64,000 bases of DNA from Devosia sp. Root436 (lineage in GTDB: Bacteria; Pseudomonadota; Alphaproteobacteria; Rhizobiales; Devosiaceae): the NCBI RefSeq assembly GCF_001426345.1, contig NZ_LMEM01000001.1, positions 35,700-99,699 on the forward strand. Direction: 5' to 3'. Shown here piece after piece: positions 42,174 through 59,103 of the stretch; position 1 is the stretch's first letter, and each line of letters starts with the position of its first letter. The notes below the pieces were generated by a model. That model had not been told where the DNA came from, made no database searches, and was given only the letters and a program-made list of their open reading frames with translations. Both the position numbers and the translations under genes were made by a program.

Positions 42174-43537
<1,364 letters not shown>

Positions 43538-43538
<1 letters not shown>

Positions 43539-44479: not shown

Positions 44480-45438
44480 GCCATACCGCGGTTATTTTTG
44501 GGGGGTCCGGCTTCTTCGGCACCCATCTCGCGCGGCAACTGGCCGAAGACCCGGCGGTGGAACGCATCGTGCTGGCCGATCTGCGGGAGCCGCGATTTGC
44601 CCATGCCAAGGTCGATTTTGTGCATTGCGACGTGCGCGAACCGATCGACATCGCGGTCAGCGGCGAGGTGGTCATCTACAATTTTGCCGCGGTCCACACG
44701 ACGCCAGGCCATGAAGACTGGGAATATTACTGGACCAATGTGCGTGGCGCGATCGAGGTCTGCCGTTTTGCCGACCGTGTTGGGACCAAGCGACTGTTCT
44801 TCACCTCGACTATGGGCATCTATGGGCCGCAGGAAGTGCGTGTCGACGAGGATACGCCACCGCTGGCGGTGACGGCCTATGGCAAATCCAAGCTGCTGGC
44901 CGAGAAGATTCACGAGGACTGGCAGGGACGCGACCCGCAGCGGCGGCTAGTGGTGATGCGTCCCGCGGTGACCTTCGGGGAAGGCGAGCGCGGAAATTTC
45001 CAGCGTCTGGCCGGCCTGCTGCGCAAGGGGCGCTTCGTCTATCCGGTTCGCAAGGACACCATCAAGGCATGCGCGCCTGTCGAGGAAATGCCGCGATGCC
45101 TGGCCTATATGGCCAGCTTCGACGAACCGGTTATCCGGTTCATCTTCGCCTATCCGGAACGGACGACGACCGAGGATATCAACAAGGCGTTTCACGCCGC
45201 CGCAGGCTATGCTTTGCCCGGCGTCGTGGTTCCTGGATGGCTCATCTATACGGCAGCGTTCGGCTTCGAGATTTTGGGCAAGCTGGGACTGCGCACGTCG
45301 ATCAACCGGGCTCGCGTCCGCAAGCTGGTTCAGTCCACCAATATCTACCCCAAGGAGCTGGTCGAGCGCGGATGGCGCTTCGAGTTGCCGCTGACCGAGG
45401 CGCTGCGGCGCTGGAACGAAACGAACGGTTTCCGATGA
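44476..45438 (+). CDS. NAD-dependent epimerase/dehydratase in the capsule operon
   Basis: A 320-residue extended SDR with NAD site GGSGFFGTHLARQL (residues 8-21) and the catalytic pair in VTAYGKSKLLAEK (Tyr and Lys near residues 135-139). The C-terminal half (EMPRCLAYMASFDEPVIRFIFAYPERTTTED) is unusual for GalE-type enzymes, with a hydrophobic region around PGWLIYTAAFGFEIL. The substrate is unknown; it may process a 6-deoxy sugar or a lipid-linked intermediate. It overlaps both neighbours by 4 nt, so it is part of a tightly coupled operon. Confidence 0.85.
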   Translation: MSHTAVIFGGSGFFGTHLARQLAEDPAVERIVLADLREPRFAHAKVDFVHCDVREPIDIAVSGEVVIYNFAAVHTTPGHEDWEYYWTNVRGAIEVCRFADRVGTKRLFFTSTMGIYGPQEVRVDEDTPPLAVTAYGKSKLLAEKIHEDWQGRDPQRRLVVMRPAVTFGEGERGNFQRLAGLLRKGRFVYPVRKDTIKACAPVEEMPRCLAYMASFDEPVIRFIFAYPERTTTEDINKAFHAAAGYALPGVVVPGWLIYTAAFGFEILGKLGLRTSINRARVRKLVQSTNIYPKELVERGWRFELPLTEALRRWNETNGFR

Positions 45439-46700
45439 CACAGACTTTCGACGCCACTTTCAAGATCGTCTTCCACGACTATGGCGGGCATGCCTTTACT
45501 GCCCATATCGCACGGGAAATGGCGCGACGCGGCGTGCGGACGCATTACATGTCGTTCGGCAGCTTCGCCACGCCCAAGGGCAAGGTGGACGGAAGAGGCG
45601 GCGATCCCAAACAGTTCAGCGCCGAACAGCTGAGCATTTCGGCCCCTTTCGACAAGGAAAACCTGATCCGCCGGCGGCGGCAGCAGATCGAATATGCCCG
45701 CATTGCGGCGGCCAAGGTGCTCGAGCAAAAGCCGGATATCGTGTTCTCATCGAATTCGCCGCTCGAAGTGCAACAGCACCTGATGCGGGCCTGCCGCGCC
45801 ATAGGCGCCAAGTTCGTGTTCTGGGTGCAGGACATCCATAGCGAGGCTATCGGCCAGATCATCGGGCGCAAGAATGCACTGCTGGGCCGGCTGGCCGGCT
45901 CCTATTACCGGATGCTCGAGCGCCGTCTGCTGCAGCAGAGCGACGCCGTGATCGTCATCTCCGACGCGTTCAGGGATATGCTGGGCGGCTGGGGGCTGGA
46001 CGCCGCAAGCATGACGGTGGTCGAGAACTGGGCGCCGCTGGAAGACATACCGGTATTGCCACGCGATAATGACTGGGCCTTGCGCCACATGCGGCCGGAT
46101 CGCACGCGCATCGTTTATTCGGGCACCATGGCCCGCAAGCACAATCCGGACATGCTGCTGCATCTGGCGCGGAACCTAGACGTGGACGTCCATCTGTTCT
46201 CCGAGGGTGCCAATGCCGACTATGTGCGGCGGAGTGCGGCTGAGCAGGGGCTCGACAATGTTTTCGTCCAGGGCTGGGTGCCGGTGGATGACCTGCCCAG
46301 CATGCTGGCGGGTGCCGATATCCTCTATGCCGTGATCGAGCGCGAGGCCGGGGTATTCTCGGTGCCGTCCAAGGTGCTGTCCTATCTGGCGGCGGGGCGG
46401 CCGATCCTGGCATCCATTCCGGCGGAGAACCTGTCCAGCCGCAAGATTGCCGGAGCTGAGGCGGGCCTGGTGTCCTCGCCCGACGATGTCGAGGCGCTGC
46501 TGGCCGATGCCCGTACGCTGCTGGCCGATGGACAGTTGCGCCAGCGCATGGGGGCCAATGGCCGGCGCTACGCGGAAGCCGAATTCGACATAACGGCCAT
46601 CGGCGACCGGTTCGTCACCATCATCGAAGAGGCCGGCGCGCGGCCATTGTCGCAACAAGCCCGTCAGCCGTCGGCGCTCAGCACCCATTCAGCCGTATAG
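45435..46700 (+). CDS. Glycosyltransferase, GT4 family (WcaI/WbuB-like)
   Basis: A 421-residue GT-B glycosyltransferase. The N-terminal half has YGGHAFTAHIAREMARRG; the C-terminal nucleotide-sugar domain starts at IVYSGTMARKHNPDMLLHLA, with the donor-site VPSKVLSYLAAGRPILASIP (a relaxed E-x7-E region). The closest organisation is WcaI/WbuB, often a fucosyl- or acetamido-sugar transferase in capsule loci; the exact sugar is not assignable. The ATG at 45435 overlaps the epimerase stop by 4 nt; the longer frame upstream is not used. Confidence 0.9.
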   Translation: MTQTFDATFKIVFHDYGGHAFTAHIAREMARRGVRTHYMSFGSFATPKGKVDGRGGDPKQFSAEQLSISAPFDKENLIRRRRQQIEYARIAAAKVLEQKPDIVFSSNSPLEVQQHLMRACRAIGAKFVFWVQDIHSEAIGQIIGRKNALLGRLAGSYYRMLERRLLQQSDAVIVISDAFRDMLGGWGLDAASMTVVENWAPLEDIPVLPRDNDWALRHMRPDRTRIVYSGTMARKHNPDMLLHLARNLDVDVHLFSEGANADYVRRSAAEQGLDNVFVQGWVPVDDLPSMLAGADILYAVIEREAGVFSVPSKVLSYLAAGRPILASIPAENLSSRKIAGAEAGLVSSPDDVEALLADARTLLADGQLRQRMGANGRRYAEAEFDITAIGDRFVTIIEEAGARPLSQQARQPSALSTHSAV

Positions 46701-46704
46701 CAGG

Positions 46705-47955
46705 ATGCAACTGTCGCAGAAGATCAATAATCTTGCTTTGCTGGTCGGCGGATATCTAGCTGGTCAAGGTGGTCTGTTTCTCAGCCAAAGCTGGCTTCTG
46801 GCCAATGAGCAAGTCAGCTTGCTGGCGGCTTTCGGTCTCTGCTTTTCTGTTGCCGGCCTGTTTGCCATATTGGTCGACTTCGGTTTTATAACGGTGCTGG
46901 CACGACACGTCGCGGTGAGTGGTGAAACCCCGCACTCGATCTACTGGGTGGCGGTTGCCACGCGGATGCTGCCAGTTCTGGCTACGGTCTTTGCCGCCGT
47001 AGCCTGGATTTGTTGGCCGGGCAGTTCGCCGTTCTCACGTTCGTATGCCCTATTTGCTCTTCCCGGTGTCGTAGCCTGGTCGTTCAACCTGACTGGTATT
47101 CTGGACGGGCTCCGGTTGAGCGGCGTCAACGGAATCGCCGCGGCGATGCCGTTTCTGCTGTCAGCGGCTGCCTTGATTGTCGCCGGTGATGTGGACCCCA
47201 CGATAGCGGGGGCCCTACTTGGCGCTGCTCTTTCACTGGGATACTTTGGGGGGCTCGTGCTTCAGGTGTGCGTGTTGCTGCGCCGCCATAAGCGCTACCT
47301 GGTCTTTTCGTCGCCCACTTTCCGCGAAATAGCGGACCTCGCACCATCAGCGGTCAAGGCTCTCCTGACAACGCTGCCGGGCCAAGTGTATTTCCGGGCG
47401 CAGTTGGCCATTTGTGCCTGGCTTTTAGGCGACAACGCGGTGGCATTGCTAATCTACTGCAAGCAGATCGTCACCGCGTTTTTGCTTATGGCCTCGTTCC
47501 TGCGACGCGTGGAGTTTCCAGATCTTGCTCAAGCGCTGGCAGGTGCAACCGCCGCGCCTCTGCGCGTCGTTTACCGGATGCAGCTTGGCGGCACGCTCTT
47601 TGGCTTATTTGGTTTTGTCGGTGTGCTGATGGCCAGTCTGGTCGCAAATCAGGTGCTCTCAGGGCCTTTGACAGAGGCTGCGCGATATTTGTCCTTGTTC
47701 AGCATTCTCATATTTTCGGGCGCAGTCTCAAGCGCCACGGTGCAAGGCTTGCTGGCGACCGCGCGCTTCGGTGCCGCCGCGTTGGCCAGCGCCATCGCCA
47801 GCGTCGCTGGAGTAGGACTAAGTCTTGCTACCGTCGCGTGGCTTGGAATTGTGGGTTTTGTGCTGGCGGACCTGGTTGGCAATGTGGCGAGTGGTATTGT
47901 CTCATCCATCATGATAGCTCGCTCTTCGACCACAGGCCGGGAGTCCAAAGAGTGA
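46705..47955 (+). CDS. Wzx-like polysaccharide flippase
   Basis: A 416-residue polytopic protein, almost entirely hydrophobic, with about 12 predicted membrane segments. It resembles MOP-superfamily (RfbX/Wzx-like) flippases that move lipid-linked repeat units across the inner membrane. Characteristic points are the early VGGYLAGQGGLFLSQ segment and long hydrophobic runs through FGLCFSVAGLFAILVDFGFI. Sequence divergence is high, as is usual. Base composition from here to about 51.7 kb is AT-richer than the preceding genes. Its GTGA end overlaps the next gene. Confidence 0.85.
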   Translation: MQLSQKINNLALLVGGYLAGQGGLFLSQSWLLANEQVSLLAAFGLCFSVAGLFAILVDFGFITVLARHVAVSGETPHSIYWVAVATRMLPVLATVFAAVAWICWPGSSPFSRSYALFALPGVVAWSFNLTGILDGLRLSGVNGIAAAMPFLLSAAALIVAGDVDPTIAGALLGAALSLGYFGGLVLQVCVLLRRHKRYLVFSSPTFREIADLAPSAVKALLTTLPGQVYFRAQLAICAWLLGDNAVALLIYCKQIVTAFLLMASFLRRVEFPDLAQALAGATAAPLRVVYRMQLGGTLFGLFGFVGVLMASLVANQVLSGPLTEAARYLSLFSILIFSGAVSSATVQGLLATARFGAAALASAIASVAGVGLSLATVAWLGIVGFVLADLVGNVASGIVSSIMIARSSTTGRESKE

Positions 47956-49247
47956 TTGCGGCGATTGGATATATTAGCCTGGCGCTGGCTATTGCATTCT
48001 GGATGCGGCGGCCATCGCTGGATGCCACGTCAGTTTTCCTGACCTACATGACTGCGTCGATCGGTGTGACGCATGCGGCGGCCAACTATTTTGGCGCGGC
48101 TTCAAGTAGTCTGGTGATGGACATTACCTCCGATCTGGCGGATGTTCTTTTCGCCGTAATGTGCGTGGCGATATTCATTATTGTAATTATTGCCAACGTT
48201 TCCTCACGCGCGGGTGGAAAAATTAAGGAATCCTCTCCTCCGAGGAATGCGCGCGCTGCCCGATCTCTTGCCGTAGCTTCTATCATCCTGTCTGTATTGT
48301 TTGTTCTGATAATGTCGCGAATATATGGCGGCGTTAGTGAATTTGTTTTCAGGATGTTCGCCCGGGTTCAACTCTTTAATTCCGTGGCCAATTTTACCCT
48401 GCTGCTAAATTGGGGTTCAATCGTACTTTCGGCGTTTGCTTTTAATTTTCTTCCGCGTGTTCGACCCAACGCGACTACAGCGCTGGTTTTTATTTCGGTG
48501 TTTCTTTCGGCGCTCGTGGCGCTTTCCAGCGGCGGCCGCTCTGTGCTGTTATTGTACATTGTTTCGATCGCTTTTAGATACATTATCAGGCTGTCATCTA
48601 CCAAGTTTATATTGTTCGGCTTCCTGATGGTAGTTGCGACTTTGTTTGTTTCGTCGCTTCTCATTACAGCAAGATATGAGGCTCAAGATGCGGCAATTTT
48701 ACAAGATTCGGAGGAAGACTCCGTTTTTGTTCGGGGTGTCACCGGACTGGCGTATCTTGATCATATGGTCTTGGCGCACGAGTATGCGAATGCCCACGGG
48801 CATGATCTCGGGCAGCTCTACTTCAATGTCCTGACCTTCCCAATTCCACGGGATCTGTGGCCCGGCAAGCCGCTGCTCATAAGTAGTCTCGTTCGGCAGT
48901 ATCGCTATGGAGACGTAACGGGGGGCACGCCGCCTGGGCTTTTCGGTGAGGCGTACATTGCGTTCGGCTATTGGGGGATCGCGCTGGTGGTCCCGCTACT
49001 GGGTTTTGTCTTGGGGAAGGTCGATCGATTGGTTCGCTTGGCGCGAAGCACCGACAGCCCCTATCAGACTGCCCTGGCAGGGATAGTGGTTCCGCTAGTA
49101 GGCTTTGCCCTTATCCGAGGAGGGGTAGACGTGGGCGCCACCAGAGTTGGCGCGCCTCTGGCATGGTGTTTCGTGGCCTGGCTGCTGATTTCCAGAAGCA
49201 GGGCGCCAAAACTGGCGCGCCATTCGCATGGCGAGACCGCTCGCTAG
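47952..49247 (+). CDS. Wzy-like polysaccharide polymerase
   Basis: A 431-residue membrane protein with about 10-11 hydrophobic segments and a large periplasmic loop (VRGVTGLAYLDHMVLAHEYANAHGHDLGQLYFNVLTFPIPRDLWPG). This layout and the PRDLWPGKPLL motif resemble O-antigen/EPS repeat-unit polymerases (the O-antigen polymerase and WzyE-like groups). It starts with GTG at 47952, overlapping the flippase stop by 4 nt; the open frame upstream runs through the flippase in another frame. It is markedly AT-rich (around 48.1-48.7 kb especially). Inner membrane. Confidence 0.82.
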   Translation: MIAAIGYISLALAIAFWMRRPSLDATSVFLTYMTASIGVTHAAANYFGAASSSLVMDITSDLADVLFAVMCVAIFIIVIIANVSSRAGGKIKESSPPRNARAARSLAVASIILSVLFVLIMSRIYGGVSEFVFRMFARVQLFNSVANFTLLLNWGSIVLSAFAFNFLPRVRPNATTALVFISVFLSALVALSSGGRSVLLLYIVSIAFRYIIRLSSTKFILFGFLMVVATLFVSSLLITARYEAQDAAILQDSEEDSVFVRGVTGLAYLDHMVLAHEYANAHGHDLGQLYFNVLTFPIPRDLWPGKPLLISSLVRQYRYGDVTGGTPPGLFGEAYIAFGYWGIALVVPLLGFVLGKVDRLVRLARSTDSPYQTALAGIVVPLVGFALIRGGVDVGATRVGAPLAWCFVAWLLISRSRAPKLARHSHGETAR

Positions 49248-49255
49248 GAGAAACA

Positions 49256-50512
49256 ATGAAATTTCTGATTGTAAACGCATTTGGGCGCTCCAACAGGGGA
49301 GACTCCGTCCTGTTGGACGAATGCATTCGTGACATTCGTCAATTTGACAGCGCGGCTGTCATCGCTGTCGCGGTCTATGAAGGTGCGGCCGAGGCGCGCA
49401 ATCTATACCCGGAGATCAAATGGTCTGGGCGGATCGGCAATGCGCCAGGCAAGCCAAGGACGCTGTGGTACCTGATCCTGAGTTGGCTATTCTGCATCAC
49501 TCGGTGGCCGGTATTCAGCCGCCTGCTGCCGGTGGACCAACAAGAAACGCTCGCCGAACTGCTGGCGGCAGACGTTGTCATAAGTGCGCCGGGCGGCTAC
49601 CTGCACGACAGCAATTTTGCCTATATCGTCGCTCTTCATCATATCCATCTCGGTGATCTTCTGGGGAAGCCGGTGGTTCTGGCGCCCCAAAGCTATGGAC
49701 CTGTGAACGGATTTTTGGCCCGCGCCTGGACGAGGCATATACTACAAAAGGCCGTTAAAATCTGCGCGAGAGAGCAGTATAGTTTTGACTTTCTAAGTAG
49801 CACGTTGCGTCTCGATAGTGACATCATCGCGCGTACGGGAGACAGTGCGTTTTGGAACATGGAGGCCACGACCAAGAAAGATGAGGTCGATGCACAGTTC
49901 CTCCGGCTGGGCATATCGACTGCCGCACCGATCCTTGGCCTTACGGTCGTCAACTGGCACTTTCCAGGACTTAGCCCTGCCGAACGCCTAAAATCCAGCT
50001 ACGTGAAGGCATTGACCGAGATCGTGGAAGCGGTCTCGGGGCAGTTTGGCCTGCAGCCGGTCATCTTCAACCAAGTTAGCGAGGATTTGCCGTTGGCGCT
50101 GGAAGTTCAGCGTTTGGCAAAAGTACATATCGCCGTGGATCAAATGGAACATGAGCCTGGTGTTCTTAGGGGGATGATTGGCAGATCAACGGTATTCCTT
50201 GGTACGAGATTTCATTCGTGCATATTTGCAATTATGGCGGGGAGGCCGGTTTTCTCTATTGCGTACCTCCCGAAGACAAGCTCGATTATGGCAGACCTCG
50301 GACTCGCTGACAGATACTGTCATATTGAGGCGGTGGAGGTTGAAAGGATAGTCGAGCAAATTTCGTTTGACGTTTCAAATTTGGTGGAGAGCCAGGATAG
50401 AATTTCTGATGCCGTGGTCCAATATCGGAAGAAATTCGGAAATTTTTCTGACGTATTGTCAACTATTCCGGACCTCAATCAACTGCGATCGGGCGCGGTG
50501 ACGCCGTGTTGA
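49256..50512 (+). CDS. Polysaccharide pyruvyltransferase family protein
   Basis: A 418-residue protein of the CsaB/WcaK polysaccharide pyruvyltransferase family. Landmarks are the N-terminal LIVNAFGRSNRGDSVLLDECI (the N-x-GD motif), VVISAPGGYLHD, VLAPQSYGP and the C-terminal FLGTRFHSCIFAIMAGRPVFSIAY, which holds the conserved His/Arg. It would add pyruvate ketals to a sugar or serve as a related transferase. The start ATG 49256 has AGGAG 5 nt upstream. It overlaps the next glycosyltransferase gene by 7 nt. AT-rich like its neighbours. Confidence 0.88.
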   Translation: MKFLIVNAFGRSNRGDSVLLDECIRDIRQFDSAAVIAVAVYEGAAEARNLYPEIKWSGRIGNAPGKPRTLWYLILSWLFCITRWPVFSRLLPVDQQETLAELLAADVVISAPGGYLHDSNFAYIVALHHIHLGDLLGKPVVLAPQSYGPVNGFLARAWTRHILQKAVKICAREQYSFDFLSSTLRLDSDIIARTGDSAFWNMEATTKKDEVDAQFLRLGISTAAPILGLTVVNWHFPGLSPAERLKSSYVKALTEIVEAVSGQFGLQPVIFNQVSEDLPLALEVQRLAKVHIAVDQMEHEPGVLRGMIGRSTVFLGTRFHSCIFAIMAGRPVFSIAYLPKTSSIMADLGLADRYCHIEAVEVERIVEQISFDVSNLVESQDRISDAVVQYRKKFGNFSDVLSTIPDLNQLRSGAVTPC

Positions 50513-51663
50513 ACGATCCATTGCCCAAGGAGTTGACGATTGTCACCCCTTGGATTTCTCGCGACGGTGGCGGGGTTTCAGAGTCGGTTCGCCTGTTGGC
50601 AACAGCCATGGCGGGCCCAGGCTACTATCGCATTACAATCGTGACGACGCGTGATGCTCATTTTGAGGAGGATCGCAAAGCGCTTCCCGATGGCATAAGG
50701 GTGCATGCCTTTCCGTATTTCGGGCCGGCCAACTACCGCTTTTCTCCTGGCATGCTTTGGCACATGCTGTTTTCCAAAGCGAAAATCGTCCATGTTCACG
50801 GCCTTTGGATGTTCCATTGCTTGGCGGTGTTGGCATGGTCGTTTAGAGGAAAACCGTATGTCGTCTCTCCTCACGGAATGCTCGAAGAATGGATTTTGCG
50901 CAGGTCGCCACGTCTAAAAGCGATCGTTTCGAGTCTTTACCAAGGCCTTTTCCTGCGTCGGGCGGCTGGGTTCCACGCCCTGACGAATAAGGAAGTCCAC
51001 GACATCAAACTTCAGATACCGGACGCGCGGTGCGAGATCATCCCGAACTATGCAAGTGTTCCGAAAAGCGATGGGAGAAAGCCTCGCTGGTGGCGCCCCA
51101 CAATGGATGGTCGAAAAATCTACCTCTTTCTGGGCCGAATTCACGAGAAAAAGGGCTGGCGGGAACTTCTGGAAGCGTGGGAGGCGCTGTCTGCCGCCGA
51201 CGAGAATTTTTCAAGATATTCGTGCCTGATTTACGCCGGATGGCTAGACGGCTCCTATGACCTGGAGGATCTCGTGGGTAAGGCGTTCCTCAAGAGCCAA
51301 AATGTATATTATGTCGGGCCGCAGTTTGGCTTGGCCAAATACATGACTATTCACGCCGCCGATTTCGTTTTGCTTCCCTCCAAAAGTGAGGGGTTGCCGA
51401 TGGTGATCCTTGAGGCTTGGGCCGCGTCCAAACCCGTCATTATGACGCCAGAGTGCAACTTACCCGTAGGTTTTGCGGCAGGAGCCGCTATTCAAACGGG
51501 AGACAGCGTTGACGAAATTATGGCGGCTCTCCTGACGGCAGATGGCCTGTCGCCGGACGATTTAAAAACCATGGGCGAGGCCGCTCGCGCGGTTGTGGGG
51601 GAATACTTTTCGGAGGAGGCGGTGGCCCAAAAAATGACGAAACTGTACAAGAGTGTCACTTAA
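50506..51663 (+). CDS. Glycosyltransferase, GT4 family
   Basis: A 385-residue GT-B glycosyltransferase. The acceptor half has VTPWISRDGGGVSESVRLLA and IVHVHGLWMFHCLAV; the donor half has YLFLGRIHEKKGWRELLEAWEAL and the E-x7-E motif region PSKSEGLPMVILEAWAASKPVI. It probably adds one sugar to the lipid-linked repeat. It begins with GTG at 50506 or TTG at 50509, inside the preceding gene. Part of the AT-richer block. The gap to the acetyltransferase is one base. Confidence 0.9.
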   Translation: MLNDPLPKELTIVTPWISRDGGGVSESVRLLATAMAGPGYYRITIVTTRDAHFEEDRKALPDGIRVHAFPYFGPANYRFSPGMLWHMLFSKAKIVHVHGLWMFHCLAVLAWSFRGKPYVVSPHGMLEEWILRRSPRLKAIVSSLYQGLFLRRAAGFHALTNKEVHDIKLQIPDARCEIIPNYASVPKSDGRKPRWWRPTMDGRKIYLFLGRIHEKKGWRELLEAWEALSAADENFSRYSCLIYAGWLDGSYDLEDLVGKAFLKSQNVYYVGPQFGLAKYMTIHAADFVLLPSKSEGLPMVILEAWAASKPVIMTPECNLPVGFAAGAAIQTGDSVDEIMAALLTADGLSPDDLKTMGEAARAVVGEYFSEEAVAQKMTKLYKSVT

Positions 51664-51664
51664 T

Positions 51665-52249
51665 ATGGCTCCGGTACTCCCTCGCGACGATGGCATCCTG
51701 GACTCGCGTGTCCACAACACATTTGCAGGTGCGCCGAGCTTCACCCTGCGTCACCGCGTGGTGAGAGCCTTATTTGGCGTAGTCTGGTTTATTTTGGCTC
51801 GGTGGACGCCGCCGCCAATGCATAGGTGGCGCGTATTTCTGCTCAATCTCTTTGGTGCTCGCGTCAGTCCGACAGCGCGGGTATATGGCAGCGCAAGAAT
51901 TTGGTACCCAAAAAACCTTTCAATGGCGGCACAGAGCGTCTTAGGACCCGGCGTCATCTGCTATTGCATGGCAAAGATTTCCATAGGGGAGCGGGCAATC
52001 GTTTCGCAGCGGGCGCATCTTTGTGCTGGTTCTCACCACGTTGACGATGAGCACTTTCAACTGTTCGCGGAACCAATCTCCATCGGGAGCAATGCATGGG
52101 TTGCCGCCGAGGCGTTCGTCGGACCGGGTGTTACCATCGGGCAGGGGGCTGTGCTTGGCGCGCGCGGCGTTGCAGCCAAGAACCTTTCCGATTGGACCAT
52201 ATATGTTGGCAATCCGGCCCGGCCGCTCCGCGAGCGCAAGAGGTTTTAG
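51665..52249 (+). CDS. WcaF-like acetyltransferase (left-handed beta-helix)
   Basis: A 194-residue LbetaH acyltransferase of the colanic acid WcaF type. The N-terminal amphipathic segment (RALFGVVWFILARWTPPPMHRWRVFLLNLFGARVSP) precedes the hexapeptide helix; the catalytic region is AHLCAGSHHVDDEHF and GVTIGQGAVLGARGVAAKNL. It probably O-acetylates a sugar of the repeat unit with acetyl-CoA. It is the last gene of the plus-strand operon; its stop overlaps the opposing spike gene by 4 nt. Confidence 0.88.
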   Translation: MAPVLPRDDGILDSRVHNTFAGAPSFTLRHRVVRALFGVVWFILARWTPPPMHRWRVFLLNLFGARVSPTARVYGSARIWYPKNLSMAAQSVLGPGVICYCMAKISIGERAIVSQRAHLCAGSHHVDDEHFQLFAEPISIGSNAWVAAEAFVGPGVTIGQGAVLGARGVAAKNLSDWTIYVGNPARPLRERKRF

Positions 52250-53013
52250 ATAGCCGCGAGCAGTAGGCGATAAAGGTCGGAATTTTGGGTCGCGCTGAGT
52301 GCTCTACCCAGATGCCCGTAGGCATACTGCCTGGTTCCATAGCTGGACCCGTTCGCGGCCAACAGCCAGAATGTCTGTGAGGACATGCCAATCGCGGGGT
52401 GTGTGACAGTTACGCGGGAAATTCCGTCCTTATCTATGCGGTACCCCTGACTGTCCCCGCGTGAAAGGACCGTGTGGCCAACGGAGGTCGAGACCGCCGG
52501 CGCGGCTAGCGGGACGGAATTGTCATTCATCCGTCCCGAAATGGCGCCGCCGCTGTTGCGGGCGAAGATGCGGGCATTGAAATTGCCGATGTCGTTCCTG
52601 TCTTCGGCGGTGTCGGTGAGGCACCAGACGCCCAGATGGGCGTCGTTGAGCGAGAACTTGCCGCCGGCTGTGACCGGATTGAAGCCGGTATCGAGATAGG
52701 CGTTGATGCCGTTGCCGGTATAGCCGCGATCCACTTCGAAGGCGGGATTGTTGACCGGCGCCAGGTTATAGGCGTCGGCCACCCAGTTGAGGCATGCCGC
52801 CTGGGCGGTGTGGGCGGCCAGCATGTAGAAGGCGTCGAGCCGCGACCACACGCCGGCATGTTTGAGGCCGGCGATCAGCGTGTTGATCAGGCCCTTGCGA
52901 CGGGCGTCGGGCGGGGTGGTCATGCGGGCGAAAAGGGCCAGCGCTTCCGGCTCGTAAGCCGGGCGGGAGCCCAGGGTGATGTCGAGGCCGAGGCCCGATC
53001 CGGTCATCGGCAT
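52246..53013 (-). CDS. Phage/GTA head-spike-like protein
   Basis: A 255-residue protein resembling phage structural or host-recognition proteins. The N-terminal helix reads EALALFARMTTPPDARRKGLINTLIAGLK, then GVWSRLDAFYMLAAHTAQAACLNWV and VDRGYTGNGINAYLDTGFNP, all patterns I associate with prophage and GTA-associated spike or tail proteins. The remainder is a beta-rich lectin-like domain. It overlaps the spike base gene by one base, so the two form a unit. By order it may correspond to GhsB (Rcc01080) of R. capsulatus GTA, but this requires a profile comparison. Start ATG 53013. Confidence 0.7.
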   Translation of the reverse strand: MPMTGSGLGLDITLGSRPAYEPEALALFARMTTPPDARRKGLINTLIAGLKHAGVWSRLDAFYMLAAHTAQAACLNWVADAYNLAPVNNPAFEVDRGYTGNGINAYLDTGFNPVTAGGKFSLNDAHLGVWCLTDTAEDRNDIGNFNARIFARNSGGAISGRMNDNSVPLAAPAVSTSVGHTVLSRGDSQGYRIDKDGISRVTVTHPAIGMSSQTFWLLAANGSSYGTRQYAYGHLGRALSATQNSDLYRLLLAAI

Positions 53014-53273
53014 CAGCTCAGCCCCACCAGGTTGGTGGCGGTGCTGGCGGTGCCAATGCGGATGGCGCGGATCGGCAGGACGCTGCCGGCCGGGACGGCG
53101 GTGAAAGTCACGTCGGCGCCGCTCAGCAATCGTGCCGTCACGTCGCCGGCGCCGCCCACATAGATCGCCCGCGTCACTTCCACCAGATCGCTTGCGTCGC
53201 TCGGCACGATGGCGAAGCCATGGGTGGCCGGTCCCTGGATGCTGGTTGCGTGGCCTTCGTATCTGTCAGTCAT
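53013..53273 (-). CDS. Spike base protein, RCAP_Rcc01079 (GhsA) family
   Basis: An 86-residue protein matching the pattern of the small spike base proteins named after R. capsulatus Rcc01079: HGFAIVPSDASDLVEVTRAIYVGGAGDVTARLL then VPAGSVLPIRAIRIGTASTATNLVGL. In RcGTA this family attaches head spikes that bind the capsule of recipient cells. It is followed immediately by the larger spike-like gene. No capsid, portal, terminase or tail genes occur in this window. The pair sits between the two halves of the capsule locus. Confidence 0.78.
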   Translation of the reverse strand: MTDRYEGHATSIQGPATHGFAIVPSDASDLVEVTRAIYVGGAGDVTARLLSGADVTFTAVPAGSVLPIRAIRIGTASTATNLVGLS

Positions 53274-53336
53274 TGGTGTCCCCTTTGTTCACGCATCAGC
53301 GTAGCATCGGGGGAACGAGGGGGGATAAGTGGCCGG

Positions 53337-54146
53337 TCAGCGCGCGGTGACGGTGAGGTCGGTTACCGTATAGGCGTCGCCGTCGATGGCGACATGCCAA
53401 TGGACGGTGTAGTCGGCGCCCGCCTCGAGGCCGTCCACGATGGTATAGAGCCAGCGCTGGTTGTCCCTGCCGCGGAGGGGATAAAGGCGGACCGGGCCAG
53501 CGGTTGCCGGCGTGGTGAAATCGAGACTGTAGGTGCCATCGGCGGCGGGCTCGTAGTTGGCCGGGCCCAGCAGCCACTGCAAGGCGACCGGATCGTAGAT
53601 GCCGGTGCGGCGCAGGTCGACCGGGCTGGTGGCAATGGCGGGCGAACCGGCGAGGTCCATGCCGTGCCATGTCCATATCGAACGGTCGGCTTCGACGGCG
53701 ACGGGGCCGAAGGCGAAGCCGGGATCGCTGCCGTCGTCCTGCTCGACGGGCGGTTCGGGCTGCGAGGCAGGGGGCGGCGGCGTGGGCACGGCGACTGCTG
53801 GCATGCTCGCATAGAGGGCATCGGCAAGGGCTGCGACACCGGTGGGCGTCAACGGCCCGAGCGCGCAGACCCTGGCAATGCCGGCTTCGGCGCAGAAGGC
53901 GTTCAGCTCGCGAATGGTGCCGATGGTGAATTGGCCATTGGGTGGGGTGGAGCGGAAGCCGCGCTCGCGCAGCTCGCTTTGGAGCACGTGAACGAAGCTG
54001 TTGGGGTCATCCGCGAAGATTTCGGCCAGCAGGGTGGCGCGTTCCTCCGGCTCCGCGGCAGCCAGGACATCCTCGGCAGGCGATTGCGCCAGTGCCGGAC
54101 TTGCACAGCAAACAATACCGGCAAGGGTAAGTAACAATGCGCGCAT
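53337..54146 (-). CDS. Exported protein with peptidoglycan-binding-like N-terminus
   Basis: A 269-residue protein with a signal peptide (RALLLTLAGIVCCASPALA, cleavage near residue 21). Residues about 45-115 look like a peptidoglycan-binding_1-type helical unit (VLQSELRERGFRSTPPNGQFTIGTIRELNAFC), followed by a Pro/Ala linker and a beta-sandwich C-terminal domain (about 150-269). The start ATG 54146 has AGGAGG 8 nt upstream. Perhaps an envelope anchor; its link to the spike genes is only positional. Function unknown. Confidence 0.75.
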   Translation of the reverse strand: MRALLLTLAGIVCCASPALAQSPAEDVLAAAEPEERATLLAEIFADDPNSFVHVLQSELRERGFRSTPPNGQFTIGTIRELNAFCAEAGIARVCALGPLTPTGVAALADALYASMPAVAVPTPPPPASQPEPPVEQDDGSDPGFAFGPVAVEADRSIWTWHGMDLAGSPAIATSPVDLRRTGIYDPVALQWLLGPANYEPAADGTYSLDFTTPATAGPVRLYPLRGRDNQRWLYTIVDGLEAGADYTVHWHVAIDGDAYTVTDLTVTAR

Positions 54147-54304
54147 GGTTGCCTTCCTCCTGGAGCCTTACGGGGAGAAGGTCGGACTAAACGTGAAAAC
54201 AGTCAACGGGGCGCCCTGTCTCTGGACGTATCGGCACGCGATTGCCGGTTGCTCGCCGGGGTCGCATGGCCGATATTTGGCGGGAATCAGCCGATGGAGC
54301 CGTC

Positions 54305-54697
54305 ATGGTCTTGGGAATCAGGTTTCGGACGCGCGCGCAGCAGCGGGACCAGCAGGGTGACCGGGCGCGCATGCAAAGCGTCCGCGATGCGGTCATGGCG
54401 GCGCGGAGCTCCGCGGAACGGGAGCGCGAGGGGCTGCGCCTGCGCATTGCCGAATGGTATGACCGGGCCGTGGCCATCATGGACACATCGGGGGAATACG
54501 GCGCGCGTTCCCCCGAGGATGAGAGCGAGATCAGCGCCGCATCCAAGGAAGCAGCGTCAGCGGAGCTGCGCGTGCGCGAAATCGCCCGCTCCATCGCGGT
54601 GTTCGACGGCATCCTCATCCAGCTCGATGAAGCCGAGCACGCCAGCGGGCAACAGGCAGATGCCACCGCTTCGCCGGGGCCGGACGGCGAGGCCTAG
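54305..54697 (+). CDS. Coiled-coil protein of unknown function
   Basis: About 130 residues, highly charged and helical, with no signal peptide. The central part (RTRAQQRDQQGDRARMQSV and AARSSAEREREGLRLRIAEWYDRA) and the EISAASKEAASAELRVREIARSI stretch look like one long coiled coil. ATG 54305 is supported by GGAGC 4 nt upstream; two earlier ATGs are possible. It is convergent with the tyrosine kinase gene, 7 nt away. I cannot assign a family. Confidence 0.6.
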   Translation: MVLGIRFRTRAQQRDQQGDRARMQSVRDAVMAARSSAEREREGLRLRIAEWYDRAVAIMDTSGEYGARSPEDESEISAASKEAASAELRVREIARSIAVFDGILIQLDEAEHASGQQADATASPGPDGEA

Positions 54698-54704
54698 TTC
54701 GGCT

Positions 54705-56837
54705 TTAGTTGTCATAGGCGGCGTAGTAGCCACCATATTTGCGCTCGTAGCCGCTGCGCGAAATGTCGAGCTGGTTGAGCACGACCACCGTCTTGGCGTC
54801 CTTGCGCTTAGCCTCGTCGAGATTGGCGAGGGCGCGGCGCGCATCGGTCTGCGCGGTGGTGGCCCAGCGCAGCACGAACACGATCGCATCGGCGAAACGC
54901 GCGATATAGCGCCCATCGACCACCGGGGCGAGCGGCGGGCTATCGAGCACGATGACGGCGAAGGAATTGCGGGCCGCCGCGATCAGCCGGCCAAATGCCG
55001 GGCCCGCCAGCAACTGGTCGGTGGGCAAATCGCTACGACGGGAGCCGATGATGAGCGTCATCTCGGTCAGGTTGTCCTTGCTGACGATGTTCTGCACACC
55101 GACATCGCGCATGGCCTCGTCGGTAAGGAAATCGAGCAGGCCCTGGGAGGGATCGAGATTGAGATGGCGGTGGATGCTCGGCTTACGCAGGTCGCAGTCG
55201 ATCAGCAAGGTGCTGTAGCCGGCGAGCGAATAGGACCGCGCCAGCGCCAGGGCCGTGGTGGTCTTGCCCTCGTTGGGCGCGGTGGAGGTCACCAGGATGA
55301 CGCGGCTGCCGAGGCTTTCCTCGTCGGGCGAGCGCAAATCCTGGTCCAGCACGGCGCGGATACGCCGGATCGACTCGGCAAAGAGCGACAGCGGCGAGGT
55401 CACCATCAAATTGGCGAGGCTTTCGCGTTCCGATTTGGCCCGTTCGCGCGGGACCGACGCCGCCACCTGCTGACGCAGAACCGATTCCACCTGTTCTTCG
55501 GTGGTGAAGCCACCGATCAGGTTTTCGCGGAGGAAGGCCAGCCCGGCGCCGAGGCCCAGGCCGGCCAGGGCAGCCAGAATGATGATGAGCGGCTTGTTGG
55601 GGAAGGACGGGCGCTCGGGCGGCAGGGCCGGGGAGACGATGCGGCTGTCGGCAAGCTGCAGGTCGGCCTGGGCCTCGAGGTCCTGGGAGCGCGCCAGCAG
55701 CGTCTGGTACTGGGTGCGGGCCAGTTCCGCGCCCTGCTGCAATTCATAGAGGCGGGTGAGGACATCGGCCGACAGCGAGCTGCCCAGCACTTCCTGGCGC
55801 AGGCGCTGGCGCAGCGTGTCTTCCTGGGTCTGGTTCTGGGTGACCGAGGCGCGCAGGTCGCTGACCTCGCTGCTGGCCGTCTCGCGCAGCCGGTTCTCGA
55901 TGGCCGCCAGCTCGTCGCGCAGGTTCACCGCCGTTGGCGTGTCGGCGCCGGCCTGGCTCAACTGGTCGGCCAGATCCTGGCGTTGCTGGGCCAGCTCGTC
56001 GAGTGCGGAGGATTGAAGGGTAGAGACGATGGAACTCCAATCCTCGTTCGCCAGATAGGTCGTTACCGCCTCCGCCGAGCGCTGCGACTGATCGCGTGCC
56101 GCCTGAAGCTGGGCCATCTGCTGCTGCATCTGCGCCAGGTCGGTGCGGCCGCTGTCCTCGATGATGCGCTGCATGTTGTCGGAGACGAAGGTATCGAACT
56201 GGCCTTCCGAACTGACGATCGCTTCGCGGGCCTGGCCGATCCGCGCCTGCAGGACGTTATAGGAGGCCAGGACGCTATCCACCTTGGAGGCCAACTGGTC
56301 GGCGATATAGGATTCGGCAATGGCATTGGTGATCCTGGCGGCCTTTTCGGCCTGCTCGGATCGCACCTGCACGGAGATTAGATAGGTCAGCCCGCGGCGC
56401 TGCACGCTGACGGCGGAGCGAAGTTCGGACAGCGCCTGGTTCACCGCCTGCTCGCCCGTAGGCAGCGCGGGGGTGCTCAGGCGCAGGAAGGTCAGGATAC
56501 GCGGCCAGAGGCCGATCGACACGCCGAATTCCGGATCGGTGACCAGGTTCTCGTCGCGAATGGCGCGCAGCAGCACATTGTCCGAGCGGGCAAGCTCGAC
56601 TTCGCTGTCGATGCGGGCACTGTCGGCGGCGGAACTGTTCATCTGCGCTTCGGGAGCGAGCAGGTTCTTGTTGCTTGGATCGACCAGAATCAGCGCCGAG
56701 GAGGTGAAGGTCGGCGTCAGCGTGAAGGCGACCAGCGTGGCGAGCGCGACGACCGCGACCACGGTCACAGCGATCAGCCGGAACTGGCGTCGCAGCAGCC
56801 CGAAGATGGCCCGGAGATTAAGTTCGTTCTCGTCCAT
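54705..56837 (-). CDS. Wzc/ExoP-type polysaccharide co-polymerase and tyrosine kinase
   Basis: A 710-residue inner-membrane protein. The N-terminal Wzz domain has one transmembrane segment near residues 18-36 and a long periplasmic coiled coil up to about 400; a second membrane segment lies near PNKPLIIILAALAGLGLGAGLAFL. The cytosolic BY-kinase has Walker A TSTAPNEGKTTTALALARSY, Walker A' LLIDCDLRKPSIH and Walker B VIVLDSPP. The last residues form a tyrosine cluster (YERKYGGYYAAY, five Tyr), the autophosphorylation site. It controls chain length and export of the polymer. First gene of a separate minus-strand unit (81-nt gap) after the phosphatase. Confidence 0.94.
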   Translation of the reverse strand: MDENELNLRAIFGLLRRQFRLIAVTVVAVVALATLVAFTLTPTFTSSALILVDPSNKNLLAPEAQMNSSAADSARIDSEVELARSDNVLLRAIRDENLVTDPEFGVSIGLWPRILTFLRLSTPALPTGEQAVNQALSELRSAVSVQRRGLTYLISVQVRSEQAEKAARITNAIAESYIADQLASKVDSVLASYNVLQARIGQAREAIVSSEGQFDTFVSDNMQRIIEDSGRTDLAQMQQQMAQLQAARDQSQRSAEAVTTYLANEDWSSIVSTLQSSALDELAQQRQDLADQLSQAGADTPTAVNLRDELAAIENRLRETASSEVSDLRASVTQNQTQEDTLRQRLRQEVLGSSLSADVLTRLYELQQGAELARTQYQTLLARSQDLEAQADLQLADSRIVSPALPPERPSFPNKPLIIILAALAGLGLGAGLAFLRENLIGGFTTEEQVESVLRQQVAASVPRERAKSERESLANLMVTSPLSLFAESIRRIRAVLDQDLRSPDEESLGSRVILVTSTAPNEGKTTTALALARSYSLAGYSTLLIDCDLRKPSIHRHLNLDPSQGLLDFLTDEAMRDVGVQNIVSKDNLTEMTLIIGSRRSDLPTDQLLAGPAFGRLIAAARNSFAVIVLDSPPLAPVVDGRYIARFADAIVFVLRWATTAQTDARRALANLDEAKRKDAKTVVVLNQLDISRSGYERKYGGYYAAYDN

Positions 56838-56917
56838 GTGGCGAATCCTAGGCTAGACGTGCAGGTAACAGGCCGGCTGTGGCGGCCGGCAGGGTGAGGA
56901 CGCCGTCGGACGGCGCG

Positions 56918-57682
56918 TCAATTGGTGAGAAGCCGGACGGGCTCTTCCGCTCGAAGCCGGGCGGCCGTCAGCCTGCCGGTGGCAAAGGCGCCCGTATCGA
57001 CGCAGATGCGTCCAGGCAGACAGACTGCCTCCGCTGCGGGCGTGTGGCCATGGACAACCATGCGATCCTGGATCGGTGGCGCGTTGAAGAATTCGTCTCG
57101 TATCCAGAGCAGGTCATCCTCACTTTGGCGTTCAACCGAATCTATGCCGGGCCGCAGGCCCGCATGAACAAACACCACACCAGGCAATGACAGTGTTAGC
57201 GGCAAATCCCGCAAAAAAGCAACGTGCTCCTGCGGGATGTGGCTATCGATGATTGCTTTGAGTTCCTTGCGTCCGGCGCGCGTAACTGCCGACATGGAAA
57301 TGCCATAGGACGAAAGTGTCTCCATGCCCCCGAACTTCAGCCAGTCATCATTGGGACCGGGCGTTTCGAGAAAGCGCAACATCATGGTTTCGTGGTTGCC
57401 GGCAAGGCAAATGCGCCGGAATCCGGGGGGCGGAGCAGCGCTGAGGTGGTCGAGCACACCGGCGGAGTGGTTGCCGCGGTCGACATAGTCCCCCAGCATG
57501 ACGATCCACTTCTCTCCGGCGATGCCGGCGGCGTCGGCGGCGATATTGCGTTCCAGGCTGCGCAATTCGTCAAGGCAGCCATGCACGTCACCGATCGCGT
57601 AGACCACATCGGGCCAATCGGCGGCGCTGAGATGGGTGCGGGCGCTTCTGGGGGCAGGGCGCCGGAAAGGATTGAACAGCAT
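56918..57682 (-). CDS. PPP-family metallophosphatase in the capsule operon
   Basis: A 254-residue PPP-type protein phosphatase. The three PPP signatures are present: GDVHGCLDE, GDYVDRGNH and GNHETM, followed by the downstream His in VHAGLRPG and HGHTP. It is therefore an active metal-dependent phosphatase of the lambda/PrpA type. It overlaps the ligase gene upstream by one base and is followed by the tyrosine kinase gene after 80 nt. It could dephosphorylate the kinase's tyrosine cluster, replacing the low-molecular-weight phosphatase (Wzb) usual in such loci; that is inference. Confidence 0.9.
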   Translation of the reverse strand: MLFNPFRRPAPRSARTHLSAADWPDVVYAIGDVHGCLDELRSLERNIAADAAGIAGEKWIVMLGDYVDRGNHSAGVLDHLSAAPPPGFRRICLAGNHETMMLRFLETPGPNDDWLKFGGMETLSSYGISMSAVTRAGRKELKAIIDSHIPQEHVAFLRDLPLTLSLPGVVFVHAGLRPGIDSVERQSEDDLLWIRDEFFNAPPIQDRMVVHGHTPAAEAVCLPGRICVDTGAFATGRLTAARLRAEEPVRLLTN

Positions 57683-59103
57683 CAGACGGTGCCGGCCTCC
57701 CTCGGACCTTTCGGCCGGACCGTTGCCGCGCCGGCGGCCAGCAGCGCCACGAAGGTAAAGGCGACAGCTTCGATCTCGAGACTGAAGTCGAGGAGGGAGT
57801 GAACGCCGCAGACGGTGATGGCCGCCAGAGCGACGGTCTGGCCGGACCAGGAGCCGCGTCCGGCGCGGAGCGACGCCAGCATGCGCCAGGCCAGCAGCGC
57901 CACGGCCAGAAGCGGGAGCGAGCCGACGATCAGGCCCAGTTCCGCCCAGAGCGAAAGGTAGGTGCTGTGGGCTTTCTGCCAGACGAGATCAAAGCTGACC
58001 GGAGCCTGGTGGACCAGCGGGAAGGCCTGCTCGAAGGCCCCCCCACCGAAGCCGGTCAGCGGCCGCAGGCTGATCAGGTCGATGACCTGGGCATAGAGGG
58101 CGCCGCGAACCTCGACGTCGGAGTCGACCGAGCCGAGGCGATCGAGCAAACGGCTGCCATAGGCAACGAATCCGGCAGCCAGCAACAGCACGATGGCAGG
58201 CACGGCGTAGAGCACGGCCTTGATCCGCCGCATGCCCCAGGCCGTGAGCAGGACGACCACCGCGGATCCCGCCACCGTGGCCGCCAGACCCATGCGGGAT
58301 CCCGTGGTCATCAACGTGGCAACGAGGATGATATAGGCGATGAGATAGAGCACGATCCAGGAGCCGTTGCCCTGAATGCGGCCATCATCCTCGTGGCGCT
58401 CGGCCTGCCGCACCAGGATGCGGCCGATCTGCGTCAGGGCGATGACGGCGCCCAGGCCCAGATAGGTGGCAAAGCTGTTGCGGTTGACGAATGTGCCCGT
58501 CGCCACATGCTGGTAGCCCCATTTGGGCATGCCCAGAATGGTGTCGCCGGTCGTCAGGTTGTAGAGGCCATAGGCTGCATAGACCAGGGCGATGATCAGC
58601 AGGCCCTTGACCAGCAGGGAGCGGCGCTGGTCATTGACGCTGACCTGCATCACCAGAAAGAACAGCAGGCCAAAGGTCAACTGGCGGATCAGCATCAGGA
58701 TGGTGGCGGTGGGCGCCAGGCTGATGGTCCTCGAGGGCACCGTCACGCCATTGATCGTGATCTCGCCCAGGCCAAGGAACTGCGCGATGGGGAGCGTCTG
58801 CGCGAAGAGATAGGCGCAGACGACCACAAACAGGACCATCGGCAGCCCCAAGGCCGACAAGCGCACGCGGAACTGTTCGCGCTTGCGGCGCAGGATCAGC
58901 GTATAGGCGACGCCGCCCAGGCCGATCGCCACGGCCCACAGTCCCCAGAAGAACGGCCTGTTGCTGCCAAGGGGGAGCGGCGCCACTGCCAGGATGGTCA
59001 ACAGGTACCAGAACATGGCGGTATTGACGCCGGCCTGGCCAGTGCCCACGGTCGACCCCTGGGTATCGCTGGTAGTGGCCCTGGAAATCTCGATCTGGGT
59101 CAT
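57682..59103 (-). CDS. O-antigen ligase/Wzy_C family membrane protein
   Basis: A 473-residue protein with about 12 membrane segments and the Wzy_C (O-antigen ligase) core. The large periplasmic loop before RPLTGFGGGAFEQAFPLVH and the conserved WAELGLIVGSLPLL segment are typical. It may act as a ligase joining polymer to a lipid or as a second polymerase. A Wzy-like polymerase is already present at 47952, so two Wzy-type genes coexist. It overlaps the upstream small membrane gene by 4 nt and the phosphatase by one base. Confidence 0.87.
   Translation of the reverse strand: MTQIEISRATTSDTQGSTVGTGQAGVNTAMFWYLLTILAVAPLPLGSNRPFFWGLWAVAIGLGGVAYTLILRRKREQFRVRLSALGLPMVLFVVVCAYLFAQTLPIAQFLGLGEITINGVTVPSRTISLAPTATILMLIRQLTFGLLFFLVMQVSVNDQRRSLLVKGLLIIALVYAAYGLYNLTTGDTILGMPKWGYQHVATGTFVNRNSFATYLGLGAVIALTQIGRILVRQAERHEDDGRIQGNGSWIVLYLIAYIILVATLMTTGSRMGLAATVAGSAVVVLLTAWGMRRIKAVLYAVPAIVLLLAAGFVAYGSRLLDRLGSVDSDVEVRGALYAQVIDLISLRPLTGFGGGAFEQAFPLVHQAPVSFDLVWQKAHSTYLSLWAELGLIVGSLPLLAVALLAWRMLASLRAGRGSWSGQTVALAAITVCGVHSLLDFSLEIEAVAFTFVALLAAGAATVRPKGPREAGTV

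Follow-up and report, generated by a model that had tools for sequence, protein, structure and literature searches.

A putative gene transfer agent head-spike gene pair in a capsule locus of Devosia sp. Root436, with a fibre tip that may be exchanged together with the capsule cassette

The head spike of the gene transfer agent (GTA) of Rhodobacter capsulatus, RcGTA, is encoded by two consecutive genes, one for the base (Rcc01079, GhsA) and the other for a fibre (Rcc01080, GhsB) with an N-terminal docking peptide. In R. capsulatus, the spike genes adjoin capsule genes and are separate from the head-tail cluster (PMC7296036, PMC10218006), the fibre residues IALGLGLGL sit on the base pentamer in the shape of a five-pointed star (PMC7296036), and CtrA together with GafA switches on the head-spike genes (PMC9638019). 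Genes outside the main GTA cluster, including receptor-binding ones, may evolve faster (PMC13420450). Comparable pairs, in which a base gene is followed by a gene for a structural protein, are also found in phages (RcapMu genes 57 and 58; phrog_12296). Phages and bacteria exchange receptor-binding proteins and capsule cassettes, the former built of a conserved anchor and a variable tip, and the latter replaced between conserved flanks. In this study, we analysed a stretch of 64,000 nucleotides from Devosia sp. Root436, a member of the Devosiaceae (contig NZ_LMEM01000001.1, positions 35,700 to 99,699; hereafter the window, in which all unprefixed coordinates are given). A two-gene module at 52246-53273 on the minus strand resembles the RcGTA spike in base family, gene order and N-terminal peptide of the fibre, and likewise lies away from the head-tail cluster and adjoins capsule genes. 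We consider it probable that the two proteins form the head spike of a GTA belonging to this bacterium, that their genes are housed with those of the receptor, and that the fibre tip can be exchanged with the capsule cassette.

By family, the 86-amino acid (aa) gene at 53013-53273 (minus strand) is a head-spike base. Its product matched the NCBIfam model NF048002 (spike base protein, RCAP_Rcc01079 family) with 100.8 bits against a curated cut-off of 28, covering model positions 1-84 of 85, and the solved RcGTA spike base Rcc01079 (PDB 6tb9_E3) with 47.8 bits (E 1.2e-11); a match to phrog_12296 was also obtained. These searches confirmed a preliminary description of the window, made from the letters alone, in which the gene had been taken for a base of the Rcc01079 (GhsA) type. 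The whole source genome (3.92 Mb, 16 contigs) carries one spike base gene.

The open reading frame (ORF) that starts directly after the base gene, at 52246-53013 on the same strand, overlaps it by one base and encodes a 255-aa protein, and both ORFs of the gene pair described earlier were thereby recovered. The N-terminus of this protein, MPMTGSGLGLDITLG, shows alternating hydrophobic residues at L8, L10, I12, and L14, that is, at four positions where RcGTA has five. The likeness to Rcc01080 considered here is one of gene position and of this peptide. The Pfam and NCBIfam profiles gave no family for the 255-aa protein, and a PDB sequence search gave chance-level matches only (best E 0.35). Its relatives in the protein database numbered 131 at E <= 1e-5, of which 120 were listed, and it matched two phage-derived PHROGs of unknown function as well as proteins in 117 phage records. 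The best phage match, with 44% identity, was from Microcystis phage Mwe-JY13, in which the gene comes after the portal gene and the 89-aa neighbour did not look base-like by eye; Gordonia phage Murp also has a relative of the fibre body.

Subsequently, 78 loci of the Devosiaceae (numbered L below) were read around their base matches, and partner genes were counted in 72 of them, with six prophage-like or broken loci (L133, L139-L143) omitted. A candidate partner ORF followed the base in 67 of the 72 loci, in 59 of them at -4 to +10 nt and in eight farther away, and none was found in five. The overlap was exactly one base in 53 of the 59 close partners. The recurrence of a partner ORF directly after the base in 59/72 family loci rules out a chance ORF. 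An alternating-hydrophobic triple occurred within the first 30 residues of 44/59 close partners, compared with 147/580 control genes, and a triple with glycine inside it in 29/59 (31/67 of all partners), compared with 34/580 controls. Several partners in another bacterial family start with similar peptides, for example MGRLGFGFGS. The fibre bodies were diverse, falling into 28 families across 52 loci, 19 of them singletons. Position, N-terminus, and phage relatives thus suggest a spike fibre, and to this extent the spike-like protein proposed in the preliminary description stands on its one-base overlap, docking-type N-terminus, and phage relatives, whereas no Pfam or NCBIfam family was assigned to it.

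The plus-strand gene array of the locus spans 42477-52249, and a minus-strand array runs from 59795 to 54705, followed by a 269-aa gene and then by the pair. Because the fibre stop (52246) and the stop of an acetyltransferase gene (52249) overlap, the pair is the meeting point of two convergent arrays. The gene families of both arrays agreed with the earlier placement of the pair between two convergent capsule operons, and no capsid, portal, tail, or integrase gene was found among the 18 window neighbours scanned by profile.

Linkage of the spike to polysaccharide genes was counted with a home-made gene finder and a seed panel that contained no integrase. The first panel was taken from the window and was widened with seeds from another bacterial family. 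With the first panel, at least one polysaccharide hallmark class was present in 51/78 spike loci, compared with 2/40 random regions of the same genomes. The widened panel gave a hallmark in 57/78 loci overall and in 53 of the 71 loci of at least 12 kb (seven shorter loci being omitted), against 2/40 random regions (Fisher p 2e-13); after dereplication at 80% base identity, the count was 47/65 (p 2e-12). Chance linkage was rejected by the 40 random regions. The synteny of pair and capsule genes, which the preliminary description had proposed as a check, was therefore observed in most of these Devosiaceae loci; the linkage, which it took for a new organising principle, is not new in itself, the adjacency being already in print for R. 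capsulatus. In the open-licence PMC literature, we found no statement of a general linkage, of a tip-cassette exchange, or of a motif common in the family. The immediate neighbours of the pair vary and include Wzc, ManC, GDP-fucose synthase, GDP-mannose dehydratase, a WecG-like protein, PMM, and others. The upstream gene was on the same strand and within 150 nt in 37/62 loci (four of the 37 being prophage-like), and 20 of these genes were recognised polysaccharide genes. No match to a phage-type seed was obtained in 74/78 family loci with this panel free of integrase seeds. Two outcomes had been named that would speak against the preliminary description, namely that neither protein matches a spike family, and that relatives carry the pair at unrelated sites next to full prophages. 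Neither outcome was observed; prophage copies were recognised in five of the 78 loci. In three family prophages (L133, L139, and L143), the spike base follows the capsid gene or lies among other virion genes.

Outside the Devosiaceae, a class-wide sample gave a base match in 13/389 genomes (the source genome included), 12 of them above the cut-off. In a second family, 51/249 genomes had a base match, 45 above the cut-off, and of nine loci read there, L216, L218-L220, and L223 lay among polysaccharide genes as judged from seeds and by eye, and L217 partly so by eye. L222 of this family looks like a prophage. L221 and L224 are GTA-type clusters in which the base and fibre genes come after the capsid gene and before the next head gene. 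A third family had the base in 7/25 genomes; six of its eight loci have what by eye is a murA-like gene nearby, and L207 resembles a prophage. L213, from a fourth family, adjoins a sugar transferase. The strong polysaccharide linkage is thus a finding on the Devosiaceae, with weaker support elsewhere, and is not universal.

The locus was also compared with that of Devosia sp. Root635 (L033). The DNA identity was about 90% from 59934 to 52522, across the Wzc gene, the 269-aa gene, and the spike base. The match ended at fibre codon 164 (52522 with two blastn settings, 52421 with laxer scoring) and resumed at 46634 (46695 with laxer scoring), continuing at about 90% to 42633. The conserved left flank, 42477-46634 on the plus strand, consists of a GDP-mannose dehydratase, two NDP-sugar epimerase/reductases, and a GT4, and was 90.6% identical to Root635 over 42633-46634. 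Between the two ~90% identical flanks, gene families and DNA comparison delimit a 5.6 kb capsule-type cassette beside the fibre (46635-52245, plus strand) with no DNA match in Root635. It encodes a flippase (46705), a membrane protein without a family (47952), a pyruvyl transferase (49256), a GT4 (50506), and a WcaF-like acetyltransferase (51653, stop 52249), all on the plus strand. In the same interval, Root635 has an acyltransferase, a membrane protein without a family, a flippase, a glycosyltransferase, and a pyruvyl transferase. The four called cassette genes of the window have no counterpart in Root635, and the acetyltransferase gene, which was uncalled by the gene finder, lies inside the same no-match stretch.

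Within the fibre gene, identity to Root635 in 60-nt steps was about 93% for codons 1-120 and 82% for codons 121-160, and then fell to 58, 52, 40, 45, and 28%. The gene was accordingly divided into a conserved base-proximal part (codons 1-164, 52522-53013, minus strand, about 90% DNA identity to Root635) and a variable tip (approximately codons 165-255, 52246-52521, minus strand), which would be the receptor-binding part. The G+C content stepped down from 65.4% in the conserved part of the fibre gene to 59.4% in its tip and 55.2% in the cassette. The eight nearest fibre relatives (P0002-P0008 and P0010) gave a similar picture, with protein identities of 66-96% for residues 31-160, 42-65% for residues 161-200, and 27-43% for residues 201-255. 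We prefer a joint change over fast evolution of the tip, because the cassette is wholly different and both of its flanks are about 90% identical.

Across 52 loci, fibre similarity tracked shared neighbours when base identity was allowed for (partial rank correlation 0.20, with 0/500 permutations as high; kinship was controlled via base-protein identity only). At a base identity of 60-70%, pairs of loci with related fibres shared 52% of their neighbours, compared with 4% for the rest (7 and 29 pairs, respectively). DNA similarity extended across the base in 11 locus pairs, and nine of these kept both fibre and neighbourhood, six of the nine coming from four related loci. These results suggest that exchange may affect spike tip and capsule type jointly. 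The co-evolution of pair and capsule proposed in the preliminary description is accordingly borne out in part, by the cassette-plus-tip difference from Root635 and the fibre/neighbour correlation, but a swap was seen once.

A GTA to which such a spike could belong was found in the source genome. Contig C2 carries an RcGTA-like head-tail cluster, extending from the terminase to g15, with genes for the portal, prohead protease, HK97 capsid, major tail, tape measure, distal tail, hub, NlpC/P60, GTA_TIM, and muramidase proteins. The tape measure fell short of the NCBIfam cut-off (142.2 bits on the RcGTA model, with 220 required), and the large terminase was assigned by position only, with no NCBIfam match at 1e-5. 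Spike genes are absent beside this cluster, so that an RcGTA-like cluster lacking spikes, for which the preliminary description had suggested a search, is indeed present elsewhere in the genome. Genes for MucR, a small Bac_DnaA_C protein (66.2 bits), and DUF6456 (93.1 bits) lie in a row about 18 kb before the promoter-like element of the GTA cluster; a split gafA arrangement of this kind has been described for Hyphomicrobiales (PMC9638019). The genome thus contains the genes of a putative RcGTA-type GTA and of GafA-type activators. Two ORFs of unknown kind lie inside the same GTA cluster, in the interval between portal and prohead protease (L065:8720-9682, minus strand). A second HK97-type head operon, G000:C1:22600-25400 (L250), lies about 12 kb to the left of the window and about 65 kb from the pair; it comprises a prohead protease-like gene (by eye) and a capsid gene whose product is 34% identical to the GTA capsid, and it is probably a prophage.

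The spike pair and the GTA cluster share a promoter-like motif. Upstream of the spike base, at 53298-53328 on the minus strand, it reads TTATCCCC-N17-TANNNT, and it is also found before the GTA cluster. Its general form is CTTATCCCCGC, 16-17 nt, and TANNNT, starting about 50-80 nt before the spike base in most loci, irrespective of the upstream gene. A weight matrix of the first part of the motif scored at least 14 before 38/57 spike bases, compared with 1/758 control genes. Because this matrix was trained on spike upstream regions, the independent test of the motif is the GTA cluster only. The best-scoring site in the 34 kb around the own GTA cluster is directly before the first gene of the cluster, and it is very close to the ATG, so that the transcript would be leaderless or translation would start further on. 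Among 36 relatives, picked from 97 for their known positions and compared by hand, the strict motif lay on the same strand 10-15 kb before GTA_TIM in ten and 1.8 kb before it in one more; at least 11/36 relatives thus have the strict motif on the GTA side, compared with about 0.4 expected. The source genome has 25 motif sites, compared with four for the reversed pattern. A generic sigma-70 scan of 51500-57000 gave no site. The TTATCC of the motif resembles the DnaA box, TTATCCACA. Since GafA carries a DnaA-like DNA-binding domain (PMC6363796, PMC9638019), the small Bac_DnaA_C protein would be a natural candidate for the regulator of the motif. For a dependence on GafA or CtrA, which the preliminary description had raised, the element common to spike and GTA cluster is the closest evidence obtained. 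In L235, L239, L240, L242, and L245, all from the own genome, a repeated G+C-rich stretch capable of folding comes after the motif; it had no Rfam match at the gathering threshold and may be a multicopy small RNA or a repeat element.

Next, the occurrence of spike and GTA was compared in 136 Devosiaceae genomes, one genome per species (numbered G below). The base was present in 76 of them. Some match to GTA_TIM was found in 107 and counted as full (about 350 bits or more) in 97. Both spike and full GTA_TIM were present in 63 genomes, the spike only in 13, the GTA only in 34, and neither in 26 (odds ratio 3.7, p 0.001, kinship ignored). Furthermore, the six high-quality genomes without DUF6456 were all without the spike (p 0.004, kinship ignored; four of the six are from one genus), and the incomplete (71%) genome G108 has the spike without DUF6456. 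Spike and GTA therefore co-occur above expectation, and neither requires the other.

Taken together, these findings can be read as follows. The base, with the jellyroll fold expected of its family, would assemble into a pentamer at each vertex of the GTA head, and a single fibre would dock into each pentamer through the alternating-hydrophobic N-terminal peptide, with its C-terminal tip binding the cell's own capsule or exopolysaccharide. The spike genes, situated in the capsule locus and provided with a promoter-like element common to the GTA cluster, would be switched on with the particle, presumably under GafA-type control, and would be inherited and exchanged along with the polysaccharide genes. 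Where the cassette is replaced by recombination, the join could fall inside the fibre gene, and the new cassette would bring its own tip; the particles would thereby keep fitting the new cell surface. In contrast to the RcGTA spike, the present one occurs in another bacterial family and with other capsule cassettes, shares a promoter-like element with the GTA, belongs to a set of 28 fibre families across 52 loci, and has a fibre gene within which identity fades between capsule types.

Several observations weigh against this assignment to the bacterium's own GTA and its capsule. The 86-aa base has Gln where RcGTA has Glu12, a residue that contacts the capsid in the structure and is a putative cation ligand, and that is outside the NF048002 family definition; among 55 aligned sequences, this position is E in 18, D in 11, and another residue in 26. 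The partner protein in RcapMu is without an obvious alternating peptide by eye. No recognised polysaccharide hallmark was found in 18/71 family loci, in a count that scored loci such as L078 and L092 as negative in spite of their polysaccharide-like appearance by eye; none of the eight loci of the third family matched any polysaccharide seed, and outside the Devosiaceae 5/20 loci read carried a hallmark by seeds alone. Prophage copies account for at least five of the 78 base loci (L133, L139, L141, and L143 by seeds, L142 by eye). Apart from a weak site at L212 (12.8), the motif was not found before the spike bases read in other families, and its 11 GTA-side genomes are not 11 independent events because of shared ancestry. 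Reading of 20 further own-genome sites showed the motif also before RNase H, tRNA-Ala, ABM, and HAD genes, and as a GTA-specific element it was rejected for this reason; other own-genome sites look like chance or coding sites. Only one clear swap, that with Root635, was seen among the 11 alignable pairs, and in L091/L106 the match continues for 1.9 kb after the fibre. Because the fibre identity declines from codon 121 already, rapid divergence of the tip is conceivable as well. Among 119 high-quality genomes, nine have the spike without a full GTA_TIM and 31 the GTA without a spike base. Of these nine, G133 has a GTA capsid gene (72%) and G051 a more distant one (46%), and in the other seven (G017, G024, G029, G042, G048, G054, and G064) neither a full GTA_TIM nor a match to the own GTA capsid was found. 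G017, G029, and G048 have a partial GTA_TIM match, and all seven keep a DUF6456 (GafA-type) gene, which fits an assembly gap or a head-tail cluster that was lost recently.

Alternatively, the pair could derive from a prophage or phage satellite, as its remnant or as a domesticated piece lodged among the capsule genes, and could serve the head of a phage instead of a GTA. Phages do use the base family, with 34 matching phage records, RcapMu has the same one-base-overlap pair beside its tail genes, and five of 78 family loci were recognised as prophages. It is also conceivable in principle that the single spike base serves the second HK97-type operon about 65 kb away. The phage pairs, however, lie among phage genes, whereas the pair in the window is in a cellular polysaccharide locus without a virion gene or integrase among the 18 scanned neighbours. 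In addition, the pair stands isolated with polysaccharide genes in 53/71 loci amid diverse immediate neighbours, the promoter-like motif also precedes the GTA cluster, and the pairs of L221 and L224 belong to GTA-type clusters. We consider service to a phage head unlikely on this evidence. We regard as very improbable another possibility, raised in the preliminary description, that the spike has become detached from particles and now serves the cell, for instance by binding polysaccharide as a protein produced alongside the capsule. The persistence of the spike in the seven high-quality genomes without a detected full GTA was the only point found for a recruitment to the cell surface, and cell-own use would also accord with the pair often being within 150 nt downstream of a same-strand gene, which is a recognised polysaccharide gene in 20/62 loci. 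Against this, no export signal is evident by eye in either of the two proteins, the combination of base and docking peptide is readily understood on a vertex with five-fold symmetry, the GTA cluster has the motif in common with the pair, and DUF6456 is retained in all seven genomes.

The linkage might also be passive, with an ancestral spike site in a polysaccharide region simply inherited and the fibre tip evolving fast. Many loci do share ancestry, genes of one locus travel together, and the partial correlation of 0.20 is modest; the fibre identity to Root635 falls stepwise and not at one base, the tip is variable in all eight nearest relatives, and the linkage is weaker outside the family. 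Mere inheritance is nevertheless hard to reconcile with immediate neighbours that differ between loci, with linkage also in two other families (L213; L216, L218-L220, and L223) and in print for R. capsulatus, or with a 5.6 kb cassette without a DNA match between ~90% identical flanks and with G+C steps of 65.4/59.4/55.2%. Passive linkage therefore appears improbable to us, and the GTA spike with a tip exchanged along with the cassette remains the preferred reading. A stronger form of it is put forward tentatively, as an idea more doubtful than the spike assignment: the capsule cassette and the fibre tip may form one exchangeable unit, in which recombination between the conserved fibre start and the sugar genes on the far side would swap lock and key at once, as a single event. 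The GTA would then remain directed to cells with a capsule of the matching type and may itself spread the unit, under selection for the fit of key to lock, amounting to a kin recognition that shares its promoter with the particle. Such an arrangement would differ from the general exchange of receptor-binding proteins and cassettes in that the cell itself appears to carry key and lock together, on a single stretch of DNA that can be exchanged.

Directly upstream of the spike base and on the same strand is the gene of a 269-aa protein of unknown family, which looks secreted by eye (53337-54146, minus strand). Further upstream, also on the minus strand, are the genes for a Wzc-like chain-length determinant/tyrosine kinase at 54705-56837, with Wzz, GNVR, and CbiA domains above their cut-offs, for a calcineurin-like phosphoesterase (phosphatase) of the polysaccharide array at 56918-57682, and for a Wzy_C/O-antigen-ligase family protein at 57682-59103. 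Between the Wzc and 269-aa genes, a 130-aa ORF without a family (54305-54697, plus strand) has relatives in 6/78 family loci, as found by clustering.

Why bacteria retain a lethal gene-transfer particle is a standing question, and one answer needs delivery among close kin. If the fibre tip travels with the capsule genes, this aim at kin would be built into the order of the genome, and a swap of the cassette should also swap the preference of the GTA. The 53/71 polysaccharide-linked spike loci represent candidate pairs of fibre and polysaccharide, and the shared motif could be used to compile candidate GTA accessory genes for the group, though it is not exclusive to them. A tip and a capsule that differ together between two close strains could make it easier for the particles to go on recognising their own kind.

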